Assembly (NCBI GenBank): GCA_949295465.1 | Contig: CASFKY010000066.1 | Span: 1-40,706, forward strand | Source of the DNA: an uncultured Oscillospiraceae bacterium | Lineage (GTDB): Bacteria; Bacillota; Clostridia; Oscillospirales; Ruminococcaceae | DNA: 40,706 bases | Reading direction: 5' to 3' | Shown: piece after piece, positions 14,389-39,855 of the stretch | How positions within the stretch are numbered: the first letter of the stretch is position 1 | Layout of the letters: each line of letters begins with the position of its first letter | Notes under the pieces: model-generated | Seen by the model: only the letters and a program-made list of their open reading frames with translations | Told to the model about the DNA's origin: nothing | The model's database searches: none | Program-made: the position numbers and the translations under genes

Positions 14389-15087
14389 ATGTCTGAATTC
14401 GTGATCGGAGGCAAAACTGTCTCAGTCTATCCCGCCGCACATCCCGGCGCGCCGGCAGTCTACCTCAACACCTTCGCCGAGGAGGGGCCCAAAGTCCGAG
14501 CCGCCCTGAAGGCGGCCGGCTGTCCTCCTCTCACCCTGGTGACCATCAGCGGCCTTGACTGGAACCGGGACCTCTCCCCCTGGCCCTGCCCTTCCCCATT
14601 CCCCCGCACGCCGCCCTTTGCAGGGGGCGCCGACGCCTACCTGCGCCTTTTGTGTGAGGAAATTCTGCCTGGGGCAGAGAGCGTCCTGGAGACTGCTCCC
14701 CGCTGGCGGGGAATTGCCGGGTACTCCCTGGCCGGGCTGTTCGCCCTTTATGCCCTCTGCGGAACAGCGGCCTTCTCCCGGGCGGCCAGCGCATCCGGCT
14801 CCCTCTGGTTTCCCGGCTTCCGGGAATATCTCTTCTCCCACGAGCCCCTTTGCCGGCCGGACCGACTCTATTTTTCCCTGGGGAATCGGGAGAGCAGGAC
14901 CCGCAATCCCCTTCTGCGGACGGTGCAGGAGGCAACGGAGGAGATCCGGGCTTTTTATCAGGGCCGGGGCATCTCCACCGTCTTTCAGCAAAACCCCGGC
15001 AACCACTACAGCCATACGCCGGAGCGCACCGCTGCCGCCATCGCCTGGCTGGCCGATGAGGGGAACGTCTTGCTGCCCCGGGGCTGA
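14389..15087 (+). CDS. Alpha/beta-fold esterase (esterase D/IroE-like)
   Basis: 232 residues. The nucleophile elbow is IAGYSLAGLFALYAL (Ser113), and the C-terminal histidine lies in NPGNHYSHTPERT. A RWRGIAGYS-L-GG pattern followed by ASASGSLWFPGF is typical of the putative-esterase family that includes enterochelin esterases and S-formylglutathione hydrolases. There is no signal peptide. The ATG at 14389 has GGGAGGGAG upstream. No siderophore genes are nearby, so a siderophore role is not implied. Confidence 0.78.
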   Translation: MSEFVIGGKTVSVYPAAHPGAPAVYLNTFAEEGPKVRAALKAAGCPPLTLVTISGLDWNRDLSPWPCPSPFPRTPPFAGGADAYLRLLCEEILPGAESVLETAPRWRGIAGYSLAGLFALYALCGTAAFSRAASASGSLWFPGFREYLFSHEPLCRPDRLYFSLGNRESRTRNPLLRTVQEATEEIRAFYQGRGISTVFQQNPGNHYSHTPERTAAAIAWLADEGNVLLPRG

Positions 15088-25606: not shown

Positions 25607-25725
25607 GGCGGGCATCTTTCCCGAATCAGCGCCAAAAGTGGAAAAGCCCCGCGGTCTTTGCTATACCGAAAGAGATCACCGCCGGGCACAAAACGGATTT
25701 CAGGCCCGGCCAGGGAGGAACTGTC

Positions 25726-26703
25726 ATGACCCCAAGCGCCCATTACCGCCGCACCCTGATTTCCTGTTATCTGGGCTATATCACACAGGCCATCTGTGCC
25801 AACTTCGCGCCCCTTCTCTTTTTGATCTTCCAGGCCTCCTACCACATCTCACTGGAAAAGATCACCCTCATCCCCACCGTCTTTTTCCTGACCCAGCTTC
25901 TGGTGGACCTGGCCGCCGCAAAATTTGTGGACCGGGCGGGCTACCGCCGCTGTTCGGTGGCCGCCCATGTGCTGGCAGCCCTGGGCCTGGCCCTGCTGGC
26001 CTTTTTGCCGGAACTGCTGCCCGACCCCTTTTGGGGCGTGCTGCTCTCGGCCGTGGTCTGCGCGGTGGGCAGCGGCCTGATCGAGGTGCTCATCAGCCCC
26101 ATTGTGGAGGCCTGCCCCTTTGAAAACAAAGCCAGCCACATGAGCCTGCTCCACTCCTTTTACTGCTGGGGGGCCGCCGCTGTCATCCTGGGCTCCACCC
26201 TGTTTCTGGCCGTCTGGGGCGCCGACCGCTGGCGGATTCTGGCCCTGCTGTGGGCGCTGATCCCCTTTTGCAATATTTTCGGCTTTCTCACCTGCCCCCT
26301 CCCGCCGCTGGCCGGGGCCGGCAAGAGCCTGGGCATCCGCAACCTGCTGCGCCTGCCCCTGTTCTGGCTTCTGGCTTTTCTGATGGTCTGCTCCGGGGCG
26401 GCCGAGACTTCCATGGCCCAGTGGGCCTCCGCCTTCACCGAGTCGGCCATGGGGGTCTCCAAGACGGTGGGAGATCTGGCGGGGCCCTGTCTGTTCGCCC
26501 TTCTCATGGGGCTTTCCCGGGTGCTCTATGCCCGGATGGGCAGCCGGCTGAACCTGGCCCGCTGTATGCTGGGTTGCGGCCTCTTGTGCATCTGCTGCTA
26601 CCTGCTGGCCTCCCTGGCCCCCTCCCCTCTTCTGGGGCTGGCGGCGGGTCTTTTGGCCCTGCAGCGGGTCTGCGCATCCCGCCCCCAGACGCCTTCCCTT
26701 TGA
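25726..26703 (+). CDS. MFS transporter, C-terminally truncated
   Basis: 325 residues. Closely related to the complete MFS protein at 32725: shared blocks include YLGYITQAICANFAPLLF, LIPTVFFLTQL, SPIVEACPFENKAS and LLHSFYCWG. After CCYLLASL the two diverge; here the frame ends with 20 or so unrelated residues (LAAGLLALQRVCASRPQTPS), whereas the paralogue continues through about 100 residues and the last two helices. It therefore has about 10 of 12 membrane segments and is probably non-functional. The break lies directly before the PLD/helicase module, suggesting a rearrangement. Substrate unknown. Confidence 0.75.
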   Translation: MTPSAHYRRTLISCYLGYITQAICANFAPLLFLIFQASYHISLEKITLIPTVFFLTQLLVDLAAAKFVDRAGYRRCSVAAHVLAALGLALLAFLPELLPDPFWGVLLSAVVCAVGSGLIEVLISPIVEACPFENKASHMSLLHSFYCWGAAAVILGSTLFLAVWGADRWRILALLWALIPFCNIFGFLTCPLPPLAGAGKSLGIRNLLRLPLFWLLAFLMVCSGAAETSMAQWASAFTESAMGVSKTVGDLAGPCLFALLMGLSRVLYARMGSRLNLARCMLGCGLLCICCYLLASLAPSPLLGLAAGLLALQRVCASRPQTPSL

Positions 26704-32606: not shown

Positions 32607-32724
32607 TGCTATCTTTTGGCAGAATTATCCCTTATAATCTCCCAATTTTGCTGTTATAATGCCCTACAGCACAGCCGGCAAAATCGTGTTGAAATCAGAA
32701 CAGCCTATGGGAAAGGAAACTGCC

Positions 32725-33951
32725 ATGATTGCGAACCCCAACTATCAAAAGACCCTGCGCGCCTGTTATCTCGGTTATGTCACACAGGCCATCTGCGCAA
32801 ATTTTGCCCCTTTGCTTTTTTTGACTTTCCAAAAGACCTACAGCATTTCGCTGGGAGCCATCGCCCTGATCCCCACCGTATTTTTTCTGACCCAGCTGGC
32901 GGTAGACTTTGCCGCCTCCGGGTTTGTGGACAGAATCGGATACCGCGCCTGCGCAGTTGTCTCCCACATCTTGTCAGCGGCGGGCCTGGCGCTGCTGGCC
33001 TTCCTGCCGGATCTTTTGCCCCTCCCCTTCCTGGGGATCCTGATCTCGGTGATGGTGTACGCCGTCAGCAGCGGCCTGATCGAGGTTCTTGTCAGCCCCA
33101 TTGTGGAGGCCTGCCCCTTTGAAAACAAGGCCAGCCGGATGAGCCTGCTCCATTCCTTCTATTGCTGGGGGATGGTGGCCGTGGTTTTGGGCTCCACCTT
33201 GTTTTTCGCCCTGTTCGGCCTGGAGAACTGGCGCATCCTCACCCTGTTGTGGGCGCTGGTCCCCTTTTGCAACATTTTCAATTTCCTGTCCTGCCCCATC
33301 CAGCGGCTGGTGGAAAACGGCGCCGGGATGCGGCCCCGGCAATTGATTCGCCTGCCCCTGTTCTGGCTGCTGGTTCTTCTGATGGCCTGCTCCGGCGCGG
33401 CGGAGAATGCCATGACCCAGTGGGCCTCCGCCTTTGCGGAGTCGGCAGTCGGGGTACCCAAAGCCGTGGGCGATCTGGCAGGCCCCTGCCTTTTTGCGGT
33501 GTTCATGGGGGTATCCCGGGTGCTCTGTGCCAAGGCCGGCCCCAAAGCGGACCTGAGAAAAAGTATGCTGGCCTGCGGCGCCCTGTGTGTGGGCTGCTAT
33601 CTGCTGGCCTCCCTGTCGCCGTTCCCGGTTTTGGGGCTGACGGGCTGTGCCCTGTGCGGGTTTTCCGTGGGCATTATGTGGCCGGGAACCATCAGCCTCT
33701 CTGCCCGGGCCTGCCCGAAGGGAGGTACGGCCATGTTCGCCTTTTTGGCGCTGGCCGGGGACCTGGGCGGCACCCTGGGCCCCCTGTCCGTGGGCTTTGT
33801 CTCCGGGCTGGCGGGCGGTGATCTGAAAAGCGGCTTTCTCGTCGCCGCGCTTTTCCCGGTTGCCCTGACCCTGGGTCTGATGGCCCTGAAAGAAAAAGAA
33901 CGGCGCCCCGCCGCCCCTGCCCGCAACAGTGTCCGAAACACCGTACAATAA
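32725..33951 (+). CDS. MFS transporter (complete copy)
   Basis: 408 residues with about 12 membrane segments. Near-paralogue of the truncated protein at 25726; the start at 32725 aligns exactly with the start of that copy (MIANPNYQKTLRACYLGYVT versus MTPSAHYRRTLISCYLGYIT) and has AAAGGAAAC upstream. The C-terminal part missing from the other copy is present (FSVGIMWPGTISLSARACPK, LALAGDLGGTLGPLSVGFVS). Substrate unknown; sugar- or drug-transporter-like members share the ACPKGGTAMFA block. Two TATAAT boxes (32633, 32655) lie upstream. It is downstream of the AraC gene. Confidence 0.87.
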   Translation: MIANPNYQKTLRACYLGYVTQAICANFAPLLFLTFQKTYSISLGAIALIPTVFFLTQLAVDFAASGFVDRIGYRACAVVSHILSAAGLALLAFLPDLLPLPFLGILISVMVYAVSSGLIEVLVSPIVEACPFENKASRMSLLHSFYCWGMVAVVLGSTLFFALFGLENWRILTLLWALVPFCNIFNFLSCPIQRLVENGAGMRPRQLIRLPLFWLLVLLMACSGAAENAMTQWASAFAESAVGVPKAVGDLAGPCLFAVFMGVSRVLCAKAGPKADLRKSMLACGALCVGCYLLASLSPFPVLGLTGCALCGFSVGIMWPGTISLSARACPKGGTAMFAFLALAGDLGGTLGPLSVGFVSGLAGGDLKSGFLVAALFPVALTLGLMALKEKERRPAAPARNSVRNTVQ

Positions 33952-35824: not shown

Positions 35825-36062
35825 AGGGGAAAAGCTGGCCCGGTTCCACAGGCGCATCCAACATGCAAAGGCTGCCCGCAGATCGTCCAGCACCCGGCCC
35901 AGCCAACTGTCCAGCCCGCAGGAATTTGGCCCGGATCAGCTCCGGGATATAGATCTCCCCCGGATTGCCGACCATATGCCCGGCATCGGATCCCTGGGCG
36001 GGCTCGTCCAACACCCCGTCCGGGTCAGTGTTCTTTATCTTCAGGCAGTTTGTCCTTCTCAT
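35825..36062 (-). pseudogene. Coding-like remnant downstream of the HxlR gene
   Basis: On the minus strand, a frame from 36062 reads GHMVGNPGEIYIPELIRAKF and LRAGQLAG. After a one-base shift near 35905 it continues as VLDDLRAAFACWMRLWNRAS. Together this looks like the C-terminal 70-80 residues of an enzyme that has lost its front. I cannot name the family; a flavodoxin-like oxidoreductase is one option. Its start overlaps the HxlR gene end, so there is no proper gene beginning. Confidence 0.35.
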
Positions 36063-36417
36063 GTTTGAATCCCCACAACATGATCTGGTAAAAAATCGGC
36101 ATCAAGTCCCGTCCCCGCTCGGTGAAGGAATACTCCACATGGGGCGGGATCTCATTGAACTGCACCCGGTTGATGAACCCGTCCCGCTCCAGTTCCCGCA
36201 AGGAGTTGGTCAGCATGGTGTTGGTAATGCCGGGCAGTTCTTTTTTTAAGGTGCCAAAGCGGACCGTGTCATGGATGCACAGCTCATATAGGATTTGGGT
36301 TTTCCACTTGCCCTGCAACATCAGCAGCAGGGGCGTCACCGGGCAGTTGCCCAGATCGGTTACGATACCCTTTTTCACATCCCGCAAATATTCTTCATAG
36401 GTCATGAGATGATCCAT
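36025..36417 (-). CDS. HxlR-family transcriptional regulator
   Basis: 130 residues: CPVTPLLLMLQGKWKTQILY, ELCIHDTVRFGTLKKELPGI, TNTMLTNSLRELERDGFINR and EIPPHVEYSFTERGRDLMPI are the winged-HTH signature blocks of HxlR proteins. The cysteine (Cys25) before the helix is the redox-sensing position in several members. The start at 36417 has GGAGGA 8 bases upstream. HxlR genes are often divergent from flavin-dependent oxidoreductases; here the divergent position holds such a gene in ruins. Confidence 0.88.
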   Translation of the reverse strand: MDHLMTYEEYLRDVKKGIVTDLGNCPVTPLLLMLQGKWKTQILYELCIHDTVRFGTLKKELPGITNTMLTNSLRELERDGFINRVQFNEIPPHVEYSFTERGRDLMPIFYQIMLWGFKHEKDKLPEDKEH

Positions 36418-36482
36418 CCTTCATTCCTCCCGATTTCATCCTTAGTCAGTTGTTTGATACTATGTACCATATTTCTGCGTAC

Positions 36483-36510
36483 TTGCTTTCATTTTCAGCC
36501 ACAGTATAAT
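36483..36510 (+). promoter_or_regulatory. Promoter facing the flavin-reductase remnant
   Basis: -35 TTGCTT, 16-bp spacer, -10 TATAAT. It is divergent from HxlR and could now drive the adenylation operon. Confidence 0.45.
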
Positions 36511-36547
36511 ATTTATACAATAAATCGTCAAGAGAGGAGACGGTCAA

Positions 36548-36772
36548 ATGACGTTCTTTACGGCGGATCGGAGGCGGGTAAATGTGTATCCCGGTCAGGG
36601 GCCGGACAGCCGCAGCACCTTCTCCCATGCCGTAAGCAGCGTCTGTAAAAACCTGCTGGCGCTTGGCTGTCCCGACTTCAGCCTTGCGGCAATCAGCGTG
36701 TCCACGCCTGCAACAAATGCGCCGCGGCAGGCATCTGCTGGATACTCAACCACCAAACCCATAAGGAGATAA
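36548..36772 (+). pseudogene. Remnant of an NAD(P)H/FMN-dependent reductase gene
   Basis: A good ribosome site (GAGGAGA) and ATG at 36548 start a frame that switches between reading frames: one reads STFSHAVSSVCKNLLALG, another GNQRVHACNKCAAAGICWI. In flavodoxin-like NAD(P)H-dependent reductases, a helix like xxTxxAL-AVxxTLE-xG is followed by GCxxCxxCxxxGxC, so the pieces fit the first 75 residues of that family with at least one indel. Nothing of the remainder is present before the next gene. Family assignment is by pattern memory only. Confidence 0.4.
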
Positions 36773-36776
36773 AACA

Positions 36777-38252
36777 ATGGACACAATTTATTCGCTTTTT
36801 CAGCAAGTTGCCATGGAGCAGGAAAATGCCCCGGCCATTCTGGAAAACAACCGCACCATGACCTTCGGGGAATTGTCCGACCTGGTGGACCGGATCGCGT
36901 GCAGTTTTCCCGGGGAGGTCCACAGCGTCGGCATCGTCATGCGCCACCGGGCCGAGATGATTGCCTCCATCCTGGCGGTACTCAAATGCGGCGGCAGATA
37001 TATCCCCGCAGAGCCGGACTTCCCTACCGGGCGCATCCATGATATGATGAGGGAAGCGCAGGTGGACTTTATTCTGACCGAGCACGCCTTTGCCTCGAAG
37101 CTGGAGGGTTTCCCCATCCGCTACACCGACTGCGAGATCTGCGGGGTGGAGACCCCTTCCTGGGAGCGCGGCGCTGTGGCCGACCCGGAGCGTCCCGCCT
37201 ATGTGCTGTACACTTCCGGCACCACCGGCCGACCCAAGGGGGTCTGTGTCACCAACCGCAATGTCTGCCACTACGTCTGGGCCTTTGCCAATGAGTTTCA
37301 TCCCGGCCCCGGCGATCGCATGCTGCAATACTCGGTCTGCTCCTTTGACATCTTTGTGGAGGAAGTGTTCACCAGCCTGCTGAACGGCGCCGCCCTGGCC
37401 ATCCCCTCCGACGAGGACAAGGCCGACATCCAGGCCCTCATGGCTTTCACAGAGCGCCATCATGTGACGATGCTCAGCGGCTTCCCCTATTTGCTGGCGG
37501 AGATGAATCACTTGTCGTCCATTCCCTCCTCCCTGCGGCTGCTGATCAGCGGCGGCGATGTGCTGCGGGGGTTCTATGTGGACCGCCTGTTGGACAAGGC
37601 GGAGGTCTACAATACCTATGGCCCGTCCGAGACCACGGTCTGCGCCTCCTACTACCGCTGCAACGGCGGCACAGTGCTGGAGGACGGGACCTATCCCATC
37701 GGCCACCCTGTACTGGGGGCACAGATTCGGATTCTGGACCCCGACGGCCACGAGGTCCCCAAGGGACAGACGGGGGAGATCTGCATCTGCGGCGGCGGTG
37801 TATCCATGGGCTATATCGGGGACCACGCCGAGGAGAACAAAGCCTTTGAACAACAGCCGGACGGCAAGGTTCTGTACCACAGCGGCGATCTTGGTTATAT
37901 TCTGCCCGACGGCAACATCGCCTTTCTGCACCGCAAGGATGACCAGGTCATGATCTACGGCAAGCGGGTGGAGGTTGCCGAGGTGGAATCCCGGCTGTAT
38001 CAGTGCAAGGATGTGCAGCAGGCGGTGGTCCGGGCCTTCACGGATGAGCAAGGCCTTTCCTACATGACCGCCTATGTGGTACCGGCGGACAAGAAGCTGA
38101 AGCTCTCCCAGGTAAAGAGAGAGCTGGCCCAGAATCTGACCGCCTTTATGATCCCGGAGTTTTTTGTGGAAATGGCACAAATCCCCCTGAACGTCAACGG
38201 CAAGCCGGATGTTTCCCGTCTGCCGGTGGTGATGAAAGCGGGGGCAGTGTGA
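36777..38252 (+). CDS. Free-standing amino-acid adenylation enzyme (NRPS A-domain-like, lysine-like code)
   Basis: 491 residues, an ANL-superfamily adenylation enzyme: LKCGGRYIPAEPDFP (A2), YVLYTSGTTGRPKGV (A3), FDIFVEEVF (A4), NTYGPSETTVCASYY (A5), GQTGEICICGGGVSMGYIG (A6), YHSGDLG (A7), KRVEVAEVES (A8 region) and NGKPDVSRL (A10 lysine). There is no carrier or condensation domain. Reading the specificity positions by hand against GrsA numbering gives D-I-E-S-I-G-T-V-C-K, eight of ten identical to the lysine code DAESIGSVCK of bacitracin synthetase as I recall it. So a basic amino acid (Lys or Orn) is the likely substrate. It could also be a DltA-type ligase using a separate carrier, but no dltC-like gene is in the window. 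AAGGAG precedes the ATG, and the stop overlaps the GNAT start. Confidence 0.85.
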   Translation: MDTIYSLFQQVAMEQENAPAILENNRTMTFGELSDLVDRIACSFPGEVHSVGIVMRHRAEMIASILAVLKCGGRYIPAEPDFPTGRIHDMMREAQVDFILTEHAFASKLEGFPIRYTDCEICGVETPSWERGAVADPERPAYVLYTSGTTGRPKGVCVTNRNVCHYVWAFANEFHPGPGDRMLQYSVCSFDIFVEEVFTSLLNGAALAIPSDEDKADIQALMAFTERHHVTMLSGFPYLLAEMNHLSSIPSSLRLLISGGDVLRGFYVDRLLDKAEVYNTYGPSETTVCASYYRCNGGTVLEDGTYPIGHPVLGAQIRILDPDGHEVPKGQTGEICICGGGVSMGYIGDHAEENKAFEQQPDGKVLYHSGDLGYILPDGNIAFLHRKDDQVMIYGKRVEVAEVESRLYQCKDVQQAVVRAFTDEQGLSYMTAYVVPADKKLKLSQVKRELAQNLTAFMIPEFFVEMAQIPLNVNGKPDVSRLPVVMKAGAV

Positions 38253-38719
38253 TGGAAATCCAGATTCGCCAGGCCACCATCCAGGACCTGGACCTGCTGA
38301 TGCAATGGCGGATGGAGGTATTGCATGCGGTATTCTCCATCCCTTCGGGGCAGTCGGCGCCCGAGCTGGCAGAGGAAAACCGCCGCTACTATCAGCAAGA
38401 GCTGCCCCGGGGCGGACACATCGCCTGCTTCGCCTATAGGGGAGAAGAGATCGTGGGCTGCGGCGGGATATGCCTCTATCCCGAAATGCCCTCGCCGGAC
38501 AATCCCAACGGAAAATGCGCCTATCTGATGAATATCTACGCCCGGCCGCAGTTTCGCAGGCAGGGCGTCGGCGGCAGGATCGTCCGCTGGCTGATCGGGC
38601 AGGCCAAACAGCGCGGGGCCACAAAAATCTATCTGGAAACGTCCGGGGCCGGCCGGCCGCTGTATCGGGAGATCGGCTTTCAGGAAATGCCCGACATGAT
38701 GAAACTGCGCAAGGAGTGA
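38252..38719 (+). CDS. GNAT-family N-acetyltransferase
   Basis: 155 residues. MNIYARPQFRRQGVGGRIVR, then WLIGQAKQRGATKIYLETSG and RPLYREIGF, are the acetyl-CoA-binding loop (RRQGVG) and following GNAT elements. It begins at the ATG overlapping the A-domain stop (TGATG), so its synthesis is coupled to the adenylation enzyme. That suggests it may acetylate the same amino acid or its product. There is a TTG/GTG-type alternative start 3 bases earlier. Confidence 0.85.
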   Translation: MEIQIRQATIQDLDLLMQWRMEVLHAVFSIPSGQSAPELAEENRRYYQQELPRGGHIACFAYRGEEIVGCGGICLYPEMPSPDNPNGKCAYLMNIYARPQFRRQGVGGRIVRWLIGQAKQRGATKIYLETSGAGRPLYREIGFQEMPDMMKLRKE

Positions 38720-38726
38720 GAATGTC

Positions 38727-39620
38727 ATGGAGCGCATCGTAAACAGCATCGACGTCAAAAGTGTGCTCACCAAATCCAACCTGCCGGTGGCCGATTATTC
38801 GGTCAATCCCTATGTGGGCTGCGAACACGCCTGCCAATACTGCTATGCCTCGTTCATGAAACGGTTCACCAACCACCCGGAGCCCTGGGGCAGATTTGTG
38901 GATGTGAAACACTGGCCGGAGATCCAAAACCCGGGGCGCTATGCGGGCAAGGAACTGTTCATCGGCTCGGTGTGCGACCCCTACCAGCCCCTGGAGGAGA
39001 CGGCCTGCCGCACCCGTGCTTTGCTGGAACAGATGCAGGGCAGCGGCTGCACCATCAGCATCGCCACCAAGAGCGACCTGGTACTGCGGGACCTGGATCT
39101 CATCAAGACCTTTCCAGGTGCCCGGGTGTCCTGGTCCATCAACACACTGGACGAGGATTTCAAGAATGATATGGACTGTGCCGTGAGCATCCAGCGGCGG
39201 CTGGCCGCCATGAAAGCCTTTCACGACGCTGGGGTGCGCACCACCTGCTTTATCTCGCCCATCTTCCCCGGCATCACCGACCTGCCCTCCATCATCCGGC
39301 AGGCCAAGGACCAGTGCAATCTGGTCTGGCTGGAAAACCTAAACCTGCGGGGCGGTTACAAGAAAACCATCCTGGACTACATCGCTCAAAAGCACCCTGA
39401 TCTGGTGCCGCTCTACGACGCCATTTACCGCAAAAAGGACCGCCATTACTGGGCCCGGCTGGATGCCCAGATGCGGCAGTTCTGCGAGGAAGAAGGACTT
39501 TTGTACGTCCGGGATGATGATTCCATCAAACGCCCCTTTGACGCGCCGCCCATTGTGGTCAACTACTTCTTCCACGAGGAGATCATCCCCTCGGCCAAGA
39601 AAAAGAAAGCGCAGGGGTGA
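38727..39620 (+). CDS. SPL-type radical SAM protein
   Basis: 297 residues. The radical SAM motif is CEHACQYC (Cys32, Cys36, Cys39; C-x3-C-x2-C) in VNPYVGCEHACQYCYASFMK. Later blocks are ELFIGSVCDPYQPLEE, SIATKSDLVLRDLDLI, VSWSINTLDEDFKNDMD and VWLENLNLRGGYKKTILDYI. It resembles the family named 'radical SAM mobile pair protein B' and Rv2578c-like proteins, as I recall them. The reaction is unknown. The expected mobile-pair partner A is not next to it; instead it forms an operon with the adenylation and GNAT genes, 7 bases after the GNAT stop. AAGGAG lies 11 bases before the ATG. Confidence 0.85.
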   Translation: MERIVNSIDVKSVLTKSNLPVADYSVNPYVGCEHACQYCYASFMKRFTNHPEPWGRFVDVKHWPEIQNPGRYAGKELFIGSVCDPYQPLEETACRTRALLEQMQGSGCTISIATKSDLVLRDLDLIKTFPGARVSWSINTLDEDFKNDMDCAVSIQRRLAAMKAFHDAGVRTTCFISPIFPGITDLPSIIRQAKDQCNLVWLENLNLRGGYKKTILDYIAQKHPDLVPLYDAIYRKKDRHYWARLDAQMRQFCEEEGLLYVRDDDSIKRPFDAPPIVVNYFFHEEIIPSAKKKKAQG

Positions 39621-39689
39621 GAGCCCCGCCAAAACGGGCCCTTTCTCAGCCGATATAAAAAAGAAACGCCTGTGAGGAGTTTGGAAAAG

Positions 39690-39737
39690 ATGACAAAAAT
39701 CCTGTTTGTCTGCCACGGCAGGATGTACCATACCTGA
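39690..39737 (+). pseudogene. Low-molecular-weight protein tyrosine phosphatase, cut inside the P-loop
   Basis: The ATG at 39690 has GAGGAG upstream and encodes MTKILFVCHG, identical in pattern to the start of LMW tyrosine phosphatases (MTKxLFVCHGNICRSPMAE). Cys8 is the catalytic cysteine. After Gly10 the sequence leaves the family (RMYHT, stop), right where NICRS should follow. The missing remainder and the drop in GC from here on indicate that a mobile element inserted in codon 11; the 3' part should lie on its far side, beyond the window. Confidence 0.7.
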
Positions 39738-39855
39738 AAAAAGAACCGTACAACAAGTATTTTTGCGTTTCAACATCCATTTTACCAACGGTTTACCAAT
39801 ATTTCTGGAGAGCTAGACTTGCAAATTATCATACCAGAATGAGGAGAACTATAAA
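39718..39855. other. Left end of an AT-rich integrated element
   Basis: From the end of the CACGGC bases of the phosphatase gene the composition changes sharply. The first 130 bases hold no gene; the phrase TTTTACCAACGGTTTACCAA with two TTTACCAA copies lies at about 39780-39800 and could be a terminal or core-region repeat. A ribosome site leads to the next small ORF. Confidence 0.45.

Follow-up and report, generated by a model that had tools for sequence, protein, structure and literature searches.

An esterase, a stand-alone adenylation protein and a GNAT acetyltransferase as the core of a putative carrier-free operon with an optional radical SAM companion in an uncultured Oscillospiraceae bacterium

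The contig CASFKY010000066.1 of an uncultured Oscillospiraceae bacterium (assembly GCA_949295465.1), analyzed over 40,706 nucleotides and referred to here as the window, carries three intact genes head to tail on the + strand at 36777–39620. They encode a stand-alone amino acid adenylation protein (A; 36777–38252, 491 amino acids) without a fused condensation or carrier domain, a GNAT acetyltransferase (38252–38719, 155 amino acids), and a radical SAM protein resembling spore photoproduct lyase (SPL; 38727–39620, 297 amino acids). An earlier note on this DNA had taken these genes as a three-gene pathway. Over the 22 A loci compared here, the steadiest unit is a different one, namely an alpha/beta esterase of the PF00756 family (Est) together with A and GNAT, often with a gene for a HxlR-type regulator. 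On the counts and gene orders at these loci, Est, A, and GNAT appear to form the core unit and the radical SAM gene an optional companion; the unit seems to have been drawn one gene off, the radical SAM protein being its least conserved member. Our tentative reading, which falls a little short of an even chance, is that of a mobile, probably HxlR-controlled, carrier-free pathway leading to a small acetylated diamino acid derivative. It draws on gene order, conservation, an invariant substrate pocket, purifying selection, a conserved intergenic region, and a shortage of carrier proteins, all of them read from sequence.

In the window, the A and GNAT genes overlap by 1 base, the last base of the A stop codon being the A of the GNAT start codon at 38252 (TGATG; an alternative GTG start lies at 38249), and 7 bases separate the GNAT stop codon from the radical SAM gene. 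These re-derived coordinates agree with the junctions given before, and a single transcript for the three genes, as proposed then, is plausible. The A protein matches PF00501 (227.6 bits) and PF13193 and no further Pfam family, and it scores above the cut-off of TIGR01733 (328.3 vs. 317.4 bits), which identifies it as an adenylation domain of the nonribosomal peptide synthetase (NRPS) type; it is not a DltA D-alanine ligase (TIGR01734, 226.1 bits vs. a cut-off of 559.85). The GNAT protein matches PF00583 (60.1 bits). A HxlR-family regulator of 130 amino acids (PF01638, 97.7 bits vs. a cut-off of 20.8) is encoded divergently on the − strand at 36025–36417 and is 94% identical in locus L041. Between the two genes lies the remnant of an esterase gene, consisting of an N-terminal part (36548–36697, + strand) and a possible C-terminal scrap in another frame (36721–36768, + strand, weak). 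The HxlR gene and this remnant (approximately 36548–36768) were absent from the earlier note.

The 22 A loci, the window included, were obtained from four sets: assembled contigs (14 loci, of which L052, at 31% identity, was dropped), 149 relatives (2 genomes, counting that of the window, at an E-value of 1e-60), 391 class-level genomes (10, again counting that of the window, of which G462, G255, and G353, with hits of 37–39% in long NRPS frames, were dropped), and 398 phylum-level genomes (2, once more counting that of the window). Gemmiger, Anaerobutyricum, Oribacterium, Selenomonas, Eubacterium, and a Spirochaetia metagenome-assembled genome are represented, among others. The loci are not independent, as L045/L050/L054, L097/L099, and L098/L100 are near copies, and the gene lists, which are based on longest frames, contain spurious frames in high-GC loci. 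L046 and L050, whose contigs end 174 and 0 bases past the match, stand outside the GNAT and radical SAM counts; L048 (216 bases upstream) stands outside the esterase count, and L048 and L051 (216 and 868 bases upstream) outside the HxlR count.

GNAT is near full length in 18 of the 20 loci with room for it (truncated in L054, absent from L048) and, by the alignment ends, starts 0–14 bases past A wherever both genes are whole. Full-length Est adjoins A in 17 of 21 loci; it lies upstream of A in 13 of them and downstream of GNAT in L097 to L100, which indicates that the grouping outlived rearrangement. The window retains only the remnant, and L028, L041, and L053 lack Est. The radical SAM gene is near full length within 6 kb of A in nine of 20 loci, truncated in L042 and L043, and absent from the other nine. 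Ten of 20 loci have a divergent HxlR gene less than 1 kb upstream, that of L044 being of half length; in L095, the distance is 6.6 kb, with Shango genes in between. Four genomes of one genus have the order A-GNAT-Est, with A proteins 57–59% identical to that of the window and no HxlR or radical SAM gene nearby. A simple form is seen in G877, where HxlR is divergent from Est-A-GNAT and no radical SAM gene follows.

The view of the trio as consecutive pathway steps, in which the radical enzyme would modify the activated lysine or ornithine, is distinctly unlikely in our estimate. Conservation of the trio had been named beforehand as the point on which this view should be probed, and gene order and tight spacing are indeed kept at four further loci, L041, L044, L045, and L049 (the last with an in-frame stop in the A gene). 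In a quick tree of 29 radical SAM proteins, seven A-linked ones and L105 share one branch of eight members (SH-aLRT 93), and a second, separate association with A is found in G011, whose radical SAM protein lies within the branch linked to Fpg and nitroreductase. A single clade of the seven was rejected (approximately unbiased test, p-AU 0.00016), because L105, which has no A gene nearby, falls among them; L028, which groups with the Fpg/nitroreductase branch, was omitted from this test. Against consecutive steps stands the patchiness of the radical SAM gene (absent from nine and truncated in two of 20 loci) while A and GNAT persist, mostly with Est. The nearest fold of the protein is that of a DNA-lesion lyase, and its close relatives retain their Fpg and nitroreductase partners.

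The radical SAM protein (PF04055, 55.9 bits; cluster motif Cys32-x3-Cys36-x2-Cys39) is no orphan, as it scores above the cut-off of the named NCBI family TIGR04470 (432.3 vs. 410 bits), the "mobile pair protein B" with a Cx3Cx2C cluster, members of which occur on plasmids. It scores below eight members of this family at 550–606 bits, and the low-scoring group (430–445 bits) includes one protein linked to pair A (G309). The label "SPL-type" given to it earlier holds at the level of the fold: the six best matches of the structural model (pLDDT 87) in the PDB are spore photoproduct lyases, with a modest template modeling (TM) score of 0.51–0.52 and 16–17% identity (best match 4fhf, E 1.3e-7, TM 0.52, 17% identity). 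In sequence, the SPL family itself is not reached (TIGR03886, 19.3 bits vs. a cut-off of 437.55). Pair A of L021 matches the family PF07505 (DUF5131); no match to this pair-A-like family was detected in the window genome, which is 84% complete, TIGR04471 itself not having been searched. Plasmid relatives of the radical SAM protein reach 58–59% identity among the matches listed; pair A adjoins in those inspected, and a MarR gene stands beside the two in two of three plasmid records inspected. In relatives, the family is found beside Fpg, nitroreductase, and DUF1848 genes. In L053 and L054 and, in pieces, in L049, genes for YjbR, a DnaQ-like exonuclease, and DUF5131 come after it; in L045, DUF5131 alone does so. 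One such row directly precedes A and GNAT in L028 (665–4409: MarR, DUF1848, nitroreductase, TIGR04470-like radical SAM, Fpg), and parts of this gene set recur in L026, L027, L029, L030, L031, L101, and L103. The YjbR protein of L053 (9655–10395), in a row with the exonuclease and DUF5131, has an extra C-terminal half; an EVE domain considered there was dropped (E 0.057, below the cut-off).

Signs of selection and of decay were both found. Between the window and L041, the ratio of nonsynonymous to synonymous substitution rates (dN/dS) is approximately 0.13 for A and GNAT, 0.085 for the radical SAM gene, and 0.06 for HxlR. For A, the underlying values are 0.068/0.54 in this comparison, 0.030/0.243 between L097 and L099, and 0.033/0.249 between L098 and L100. 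Such low ratios point to purifying selection on all four genes. Broken copies of A occur as well, with stops in L028 and L049 and deletions in L053 and L054, the latter two being metagenome assemblies in which assembly errors are possible. The module appears to be selected where it is retained and to be lost often, as is seen with conditionally useful genes.

The esterase remnant of the window preserves 54 N-terminal residues at 39% (46.6 bits vs. 23.1 bits for the best of 200 base shuffles), and the C-terminal scrap (23.9 bits) is barely above that best shuffle. In L041, the closest relative, the 160-base gap contains no trace of an esterase. Three intact Est relatives tested against PF00756 scored 29.1, 36.5, and 37.7 bits (vs. 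22). Of the catalytic residues, Ser114 and His207 are invariant in 17 of 17 aligned proteins, and the acid is Asp167 or Glu169. A full-length esterase of the same family, encoded 22 kb upstream in the window (14389–15087, + strand), could serve the pathway; the family is common as a single gene.

Despite the broken or lost esterase, the intergenic region on the HxlR side (36459–36531 in the window) retains its conserved blocks in the window and in L041. In an alignment of nine loci, among them the near copies L045, L050, and L054, it displays 29 invariant columns, with the blocks AC[TC]ATGTA, TACTTG, AGTAT[AG]AT, and GTCAA. The region is probably a promoter/operator. Since a scan with the sigma-70 consensus returned promoter-like sites only at chance number, the promoter assignment rests on conservation. 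Part of this conservation may reflect the promoter of HxlR itself, because the region also precedes that gene. The operon is probably under HxlR control.

The ten pocket positions of A, assigned by GrsA numbering, read DIESIGTVCK, the same code as reported earlier, and are identical in 17 of 17 aligned proteins (the window and 16 orthologues of 57–88% identity); the A proteins of the other five loci were broken, partial, or found later. The A10 lysine (Lys476) is likewise conserved in 17 of 17, and A retains the core motifs of ordinary NRPS adenylation domains. The lysine code of bacitracin synthetase, DAESIGSVCK, was not found in the literature searched. In PosA (code DMEHNGTVSK), the alpha-amine is bound by the Asp of position 1 and the side-chain amine by the Glu of position 3; the residue at position 2 has been proposed to determine the chain length, with Phe for diaminopropionate/diaminobutyrate, Met for ornithine, and Ala for lysine (PMC10522769). 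The code of A shares with it the letters D (1), E (3), G (6), T (7), V (8), and K (10), and nine of ten letters with that of an uncharacterized fungal homopolymer synthetase (DIESIGTVTK; PMC10522769). In its first and third residues (Asp and Glu), the pocket resembles those of diamino acid enzymes, and the lysine/ornithine-type substrate suggested earlier fits it. Since Ile at position 2 stands between the PosA-type residues, ornithine, lysine, and diaminobutyrate all remain candidates. The substrate is likely an ornithine- or lysine-type diamino acid. The protein belongs to the same family, with the same core motifs, as the cationic homopolymer synthetases Pls and PosA and the lysine module of bacitracin synthetase. 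It differs from them in its length of 491 amino acids with two Pfam domains, in the absence of a carrier, a condensation, or a transmembrane polymerizing domain, and in its pairing with a GNAT and an esterase; it does not belong to the Pls/PosA group, as a fused carrier and transmembrane domain was not found in it.

A role as a detoxification or resistance cassette, in which A and GNAT would modify a xenobiotic or antibiotic amine, the esterase would hydrolyze, and the radical SAM and repair genes would handle nucleic acid damage, is rather improbable. The invariant amino acid pocket fits biosynthesis better than a shifting drug target, and the repair genes track the radical SAM gene and not A and GNAT, many A loci having none of them. 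In favor of such a cassette are the HxlR- and MarR-type regulators, the patchy distribution with repeated decay, the TetR and MATE efflux genes that separate GNAT from the radical SAM gene in L095, and the company that the radical SAM family keeps in relatives (nitroreductase, Fpg DNA glycosylase, YjbR, DnaQ-like exonuclease).

Adenylation domains normally pass the amino acid on to a carrier protein. That no carrier is visible, as had been stated, holds for the surroundings of A and, as far as the genome has been sequenced (G000, 84% complete), for dedicated carriers; carrier domains as such are present, with three PF00550 matches, of which two are AcpP-like by eye and one is odd, and one match of the ACPS family. 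In the odd carrier (contig C82, 13294–13485), DSFGRAS stands where a DSLD motif is usual. This genome has no PF00501 match besides A. In nine A-bearing genomes, no PF00550 domain was detected on the contig of A up to a distance of 100 kb, the contigs being of limited length. An NRPS assembly line is not apparent, as there is no carrier or condensation domain in A or beside it, condensation domains not having been searched genome-wide. G225, which is 99% complete and has an intact A, possesses a single PF00550 domain, on another contig and presumably AcpP; G011 also has only one, and its A gene is broken. In the four genomes with the order A-GNAT-Est, carriers sit inside long NRPS-like frames elsewhere and are uninformative on this question. 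On the whole, a dedicated carrier for A is not evident. The alternative is that A loads an unlinked carrier, either AcpP or the odd third one, and that GNAT and the esterase act on the thioester or the released product. We regard this as unlikely in view of G225 and of the nine genomes, while the three PF00550 matches and the ACPS-family match of the window genome, together with the ordinary NRPS adenylation motifs of A including the A10 lysine, speak for it.

The structural model of GNAT (pLDDT 92) has as nearest folds 3mgd, 2q0y, a Lactobacillus GNAT, PaiA, and the polyamine acetyltransferase DpA, neighbors that are compatible with a small amine as acceptor and do not prove it. GNAT might instead be a protein acetyltransferase that inactivates A through the A10 lysine, in the way in which AcuA and Pat act on AMP-forming CoA ligases. 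The fixed adjacency of the two genes and the conservation of Lys476 fit such an off-switch, and AcuA-AcsA is a precedent (PMC11255334). We consider it very unlikely, as the closest solved relatives (3mgd, 2q0y, PaiA, DpA) are of the small-molecule type or uncharacterized and neither AcuA nor Pat is named in the best 50 of the 853 chains matched at E 0.001, no direct comparison having been made.

In the carrier-free pathway that we prefer, the operon would have spread horizontally with an HxlR-type regulator in control, and A would adenylate ornithine, lysine, or a closely related alpha,omega-diamino acid. No dedicated carrier having been found, the aminoacyl-AMP would probably be used directly, either cyclizing to an amino-lactam or being taken by an amine acceptor. 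GNAT would acetylate the free amine, and the esterase, decayed beside A in the window, would release, transfer, or turn over the product. In this scheme, the SPL-like radical SAM protein would be an accessory from a mobile stress or repair cassette found with the operon over part of its distribution. The carrier-free chemistry, the acceptor, and the roles of GNAT and the esterase are conjecture. The editing of ornithine by lysyl-tRNA synthetase proceeds via a lactam. The editing itself is described in PMC5370406, the text of which does not contain the word lactam. For the ATP-driven cyclization of an amino acid to a lactam, PMC11196342 provides a precedent in ORF26, an omega-amino acid cyclizing ligase to which A bears only a chemical analogy.

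Several observations weigh against this pathway. L048 has A without GNAT, the esterase is missing from three loci and broken in the window, and half of the 20 loci lack HxlR within 1 kb. An esterase homologue (E 1e-12) occurs in 29 of 149 relatives compared with A in two of 149, and at none of seven lone-esterase loci inspected by eye was an A gene found within 1.5 kb; since the esterase is common as a lone gene, its link to A may be loose. The fold neighbors of GNAT are numerous and unspecific, the carrier-free route is deduced from what draft genomes lack, loading of the fatty acid carrier by A is still conceivable, and both product and acceptor are proposals.

The operon appears to have spread horizontally. 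With the patterns used, viral contigs yielded no relative of A or the radical SAM protein. Phage and plasmid matches of A were taken as other NRPS domains (27–35% among the matches listed, below 60% in all records). Plasmid relatives of GNAT reach at most 35% among the matches listed, and no A protein is encoded within 4 kb on either side of the best one. An anti-phage system of its own was considered and dropped, as PADLOC (E 0.01) returned no match for A, GNAT, the radical SAM protein, HxlR, or the esterase. Shango-like genes lie inside the A cluster, adjoining HxlR, in L044 (10989–16379) and L095 (2215–7636), at different positions; those of L095 are SngA, SngB, and SngC according to PADLOC, and the L044 proteins are 53–84% identical to them. 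This amounts to two of the 22 A loci, a background rate for comparison being lacking. By eye, a sirtuin-like gene stands beside HxlR in L050 (165–1094; a relative in L096, 18287–19147), and macrodomain-like genes occur in L042 and L096. Also by eye, the A-GNAT-Est operon of L098 (1846–8236) comes after a Cas9-like gene accompanied by small cas-like genes and a repeat array, and L100 has the same Cas9-like gene. In the window itself, just 3′ of the radical SAM gene, a gene start at 39680–39740 ends after approximately 15 codons; by eye we take it to be that of a low-molecular-weight phosphatase. Two frames for transporters of the major facilitator superfamily (25702–26628 and 32659–33951) are 67% identical over approximately 310 residues.

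In keeping with the earlier note, no described system with this gene set was found in the open-access literature searched. The radical SAM mobile pair families, the related DUFs, and the code strings were not found there either, which, for open-access papers only, is weak evidence of novelty. Stand-alone adenylation enzymes are of a known kind; the grouping of Est, A, and GNAT would be new, and carrier-free chemistry is plausible for it. A far more specific version, which we offer as a highly speculative one, is that the HxlR/Est-A-GNAT operon of gut- and rumen-type Firmicutes and a Spirochaetia genome converts ornithine or lysine, via the adenylate, to a lactam and, by acetylation, further to an N-acyl amino-lactam, with the esterase for turnover, on islands that also carry DNA-repair radical SAM cassettes and, in two relatives, Shango. 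If true, the N-acyl amino-lactam would be analogous to acyl-homoserine lactone signals. The operon may be a small and clean test case for amino acid activation without a carrier in bacteria related to common gut inhabitants and possibly the source of a new family of small metabolites, with a biosynthetic core that would be separable from the mobile radical SAM gene on the same transcript of the window.

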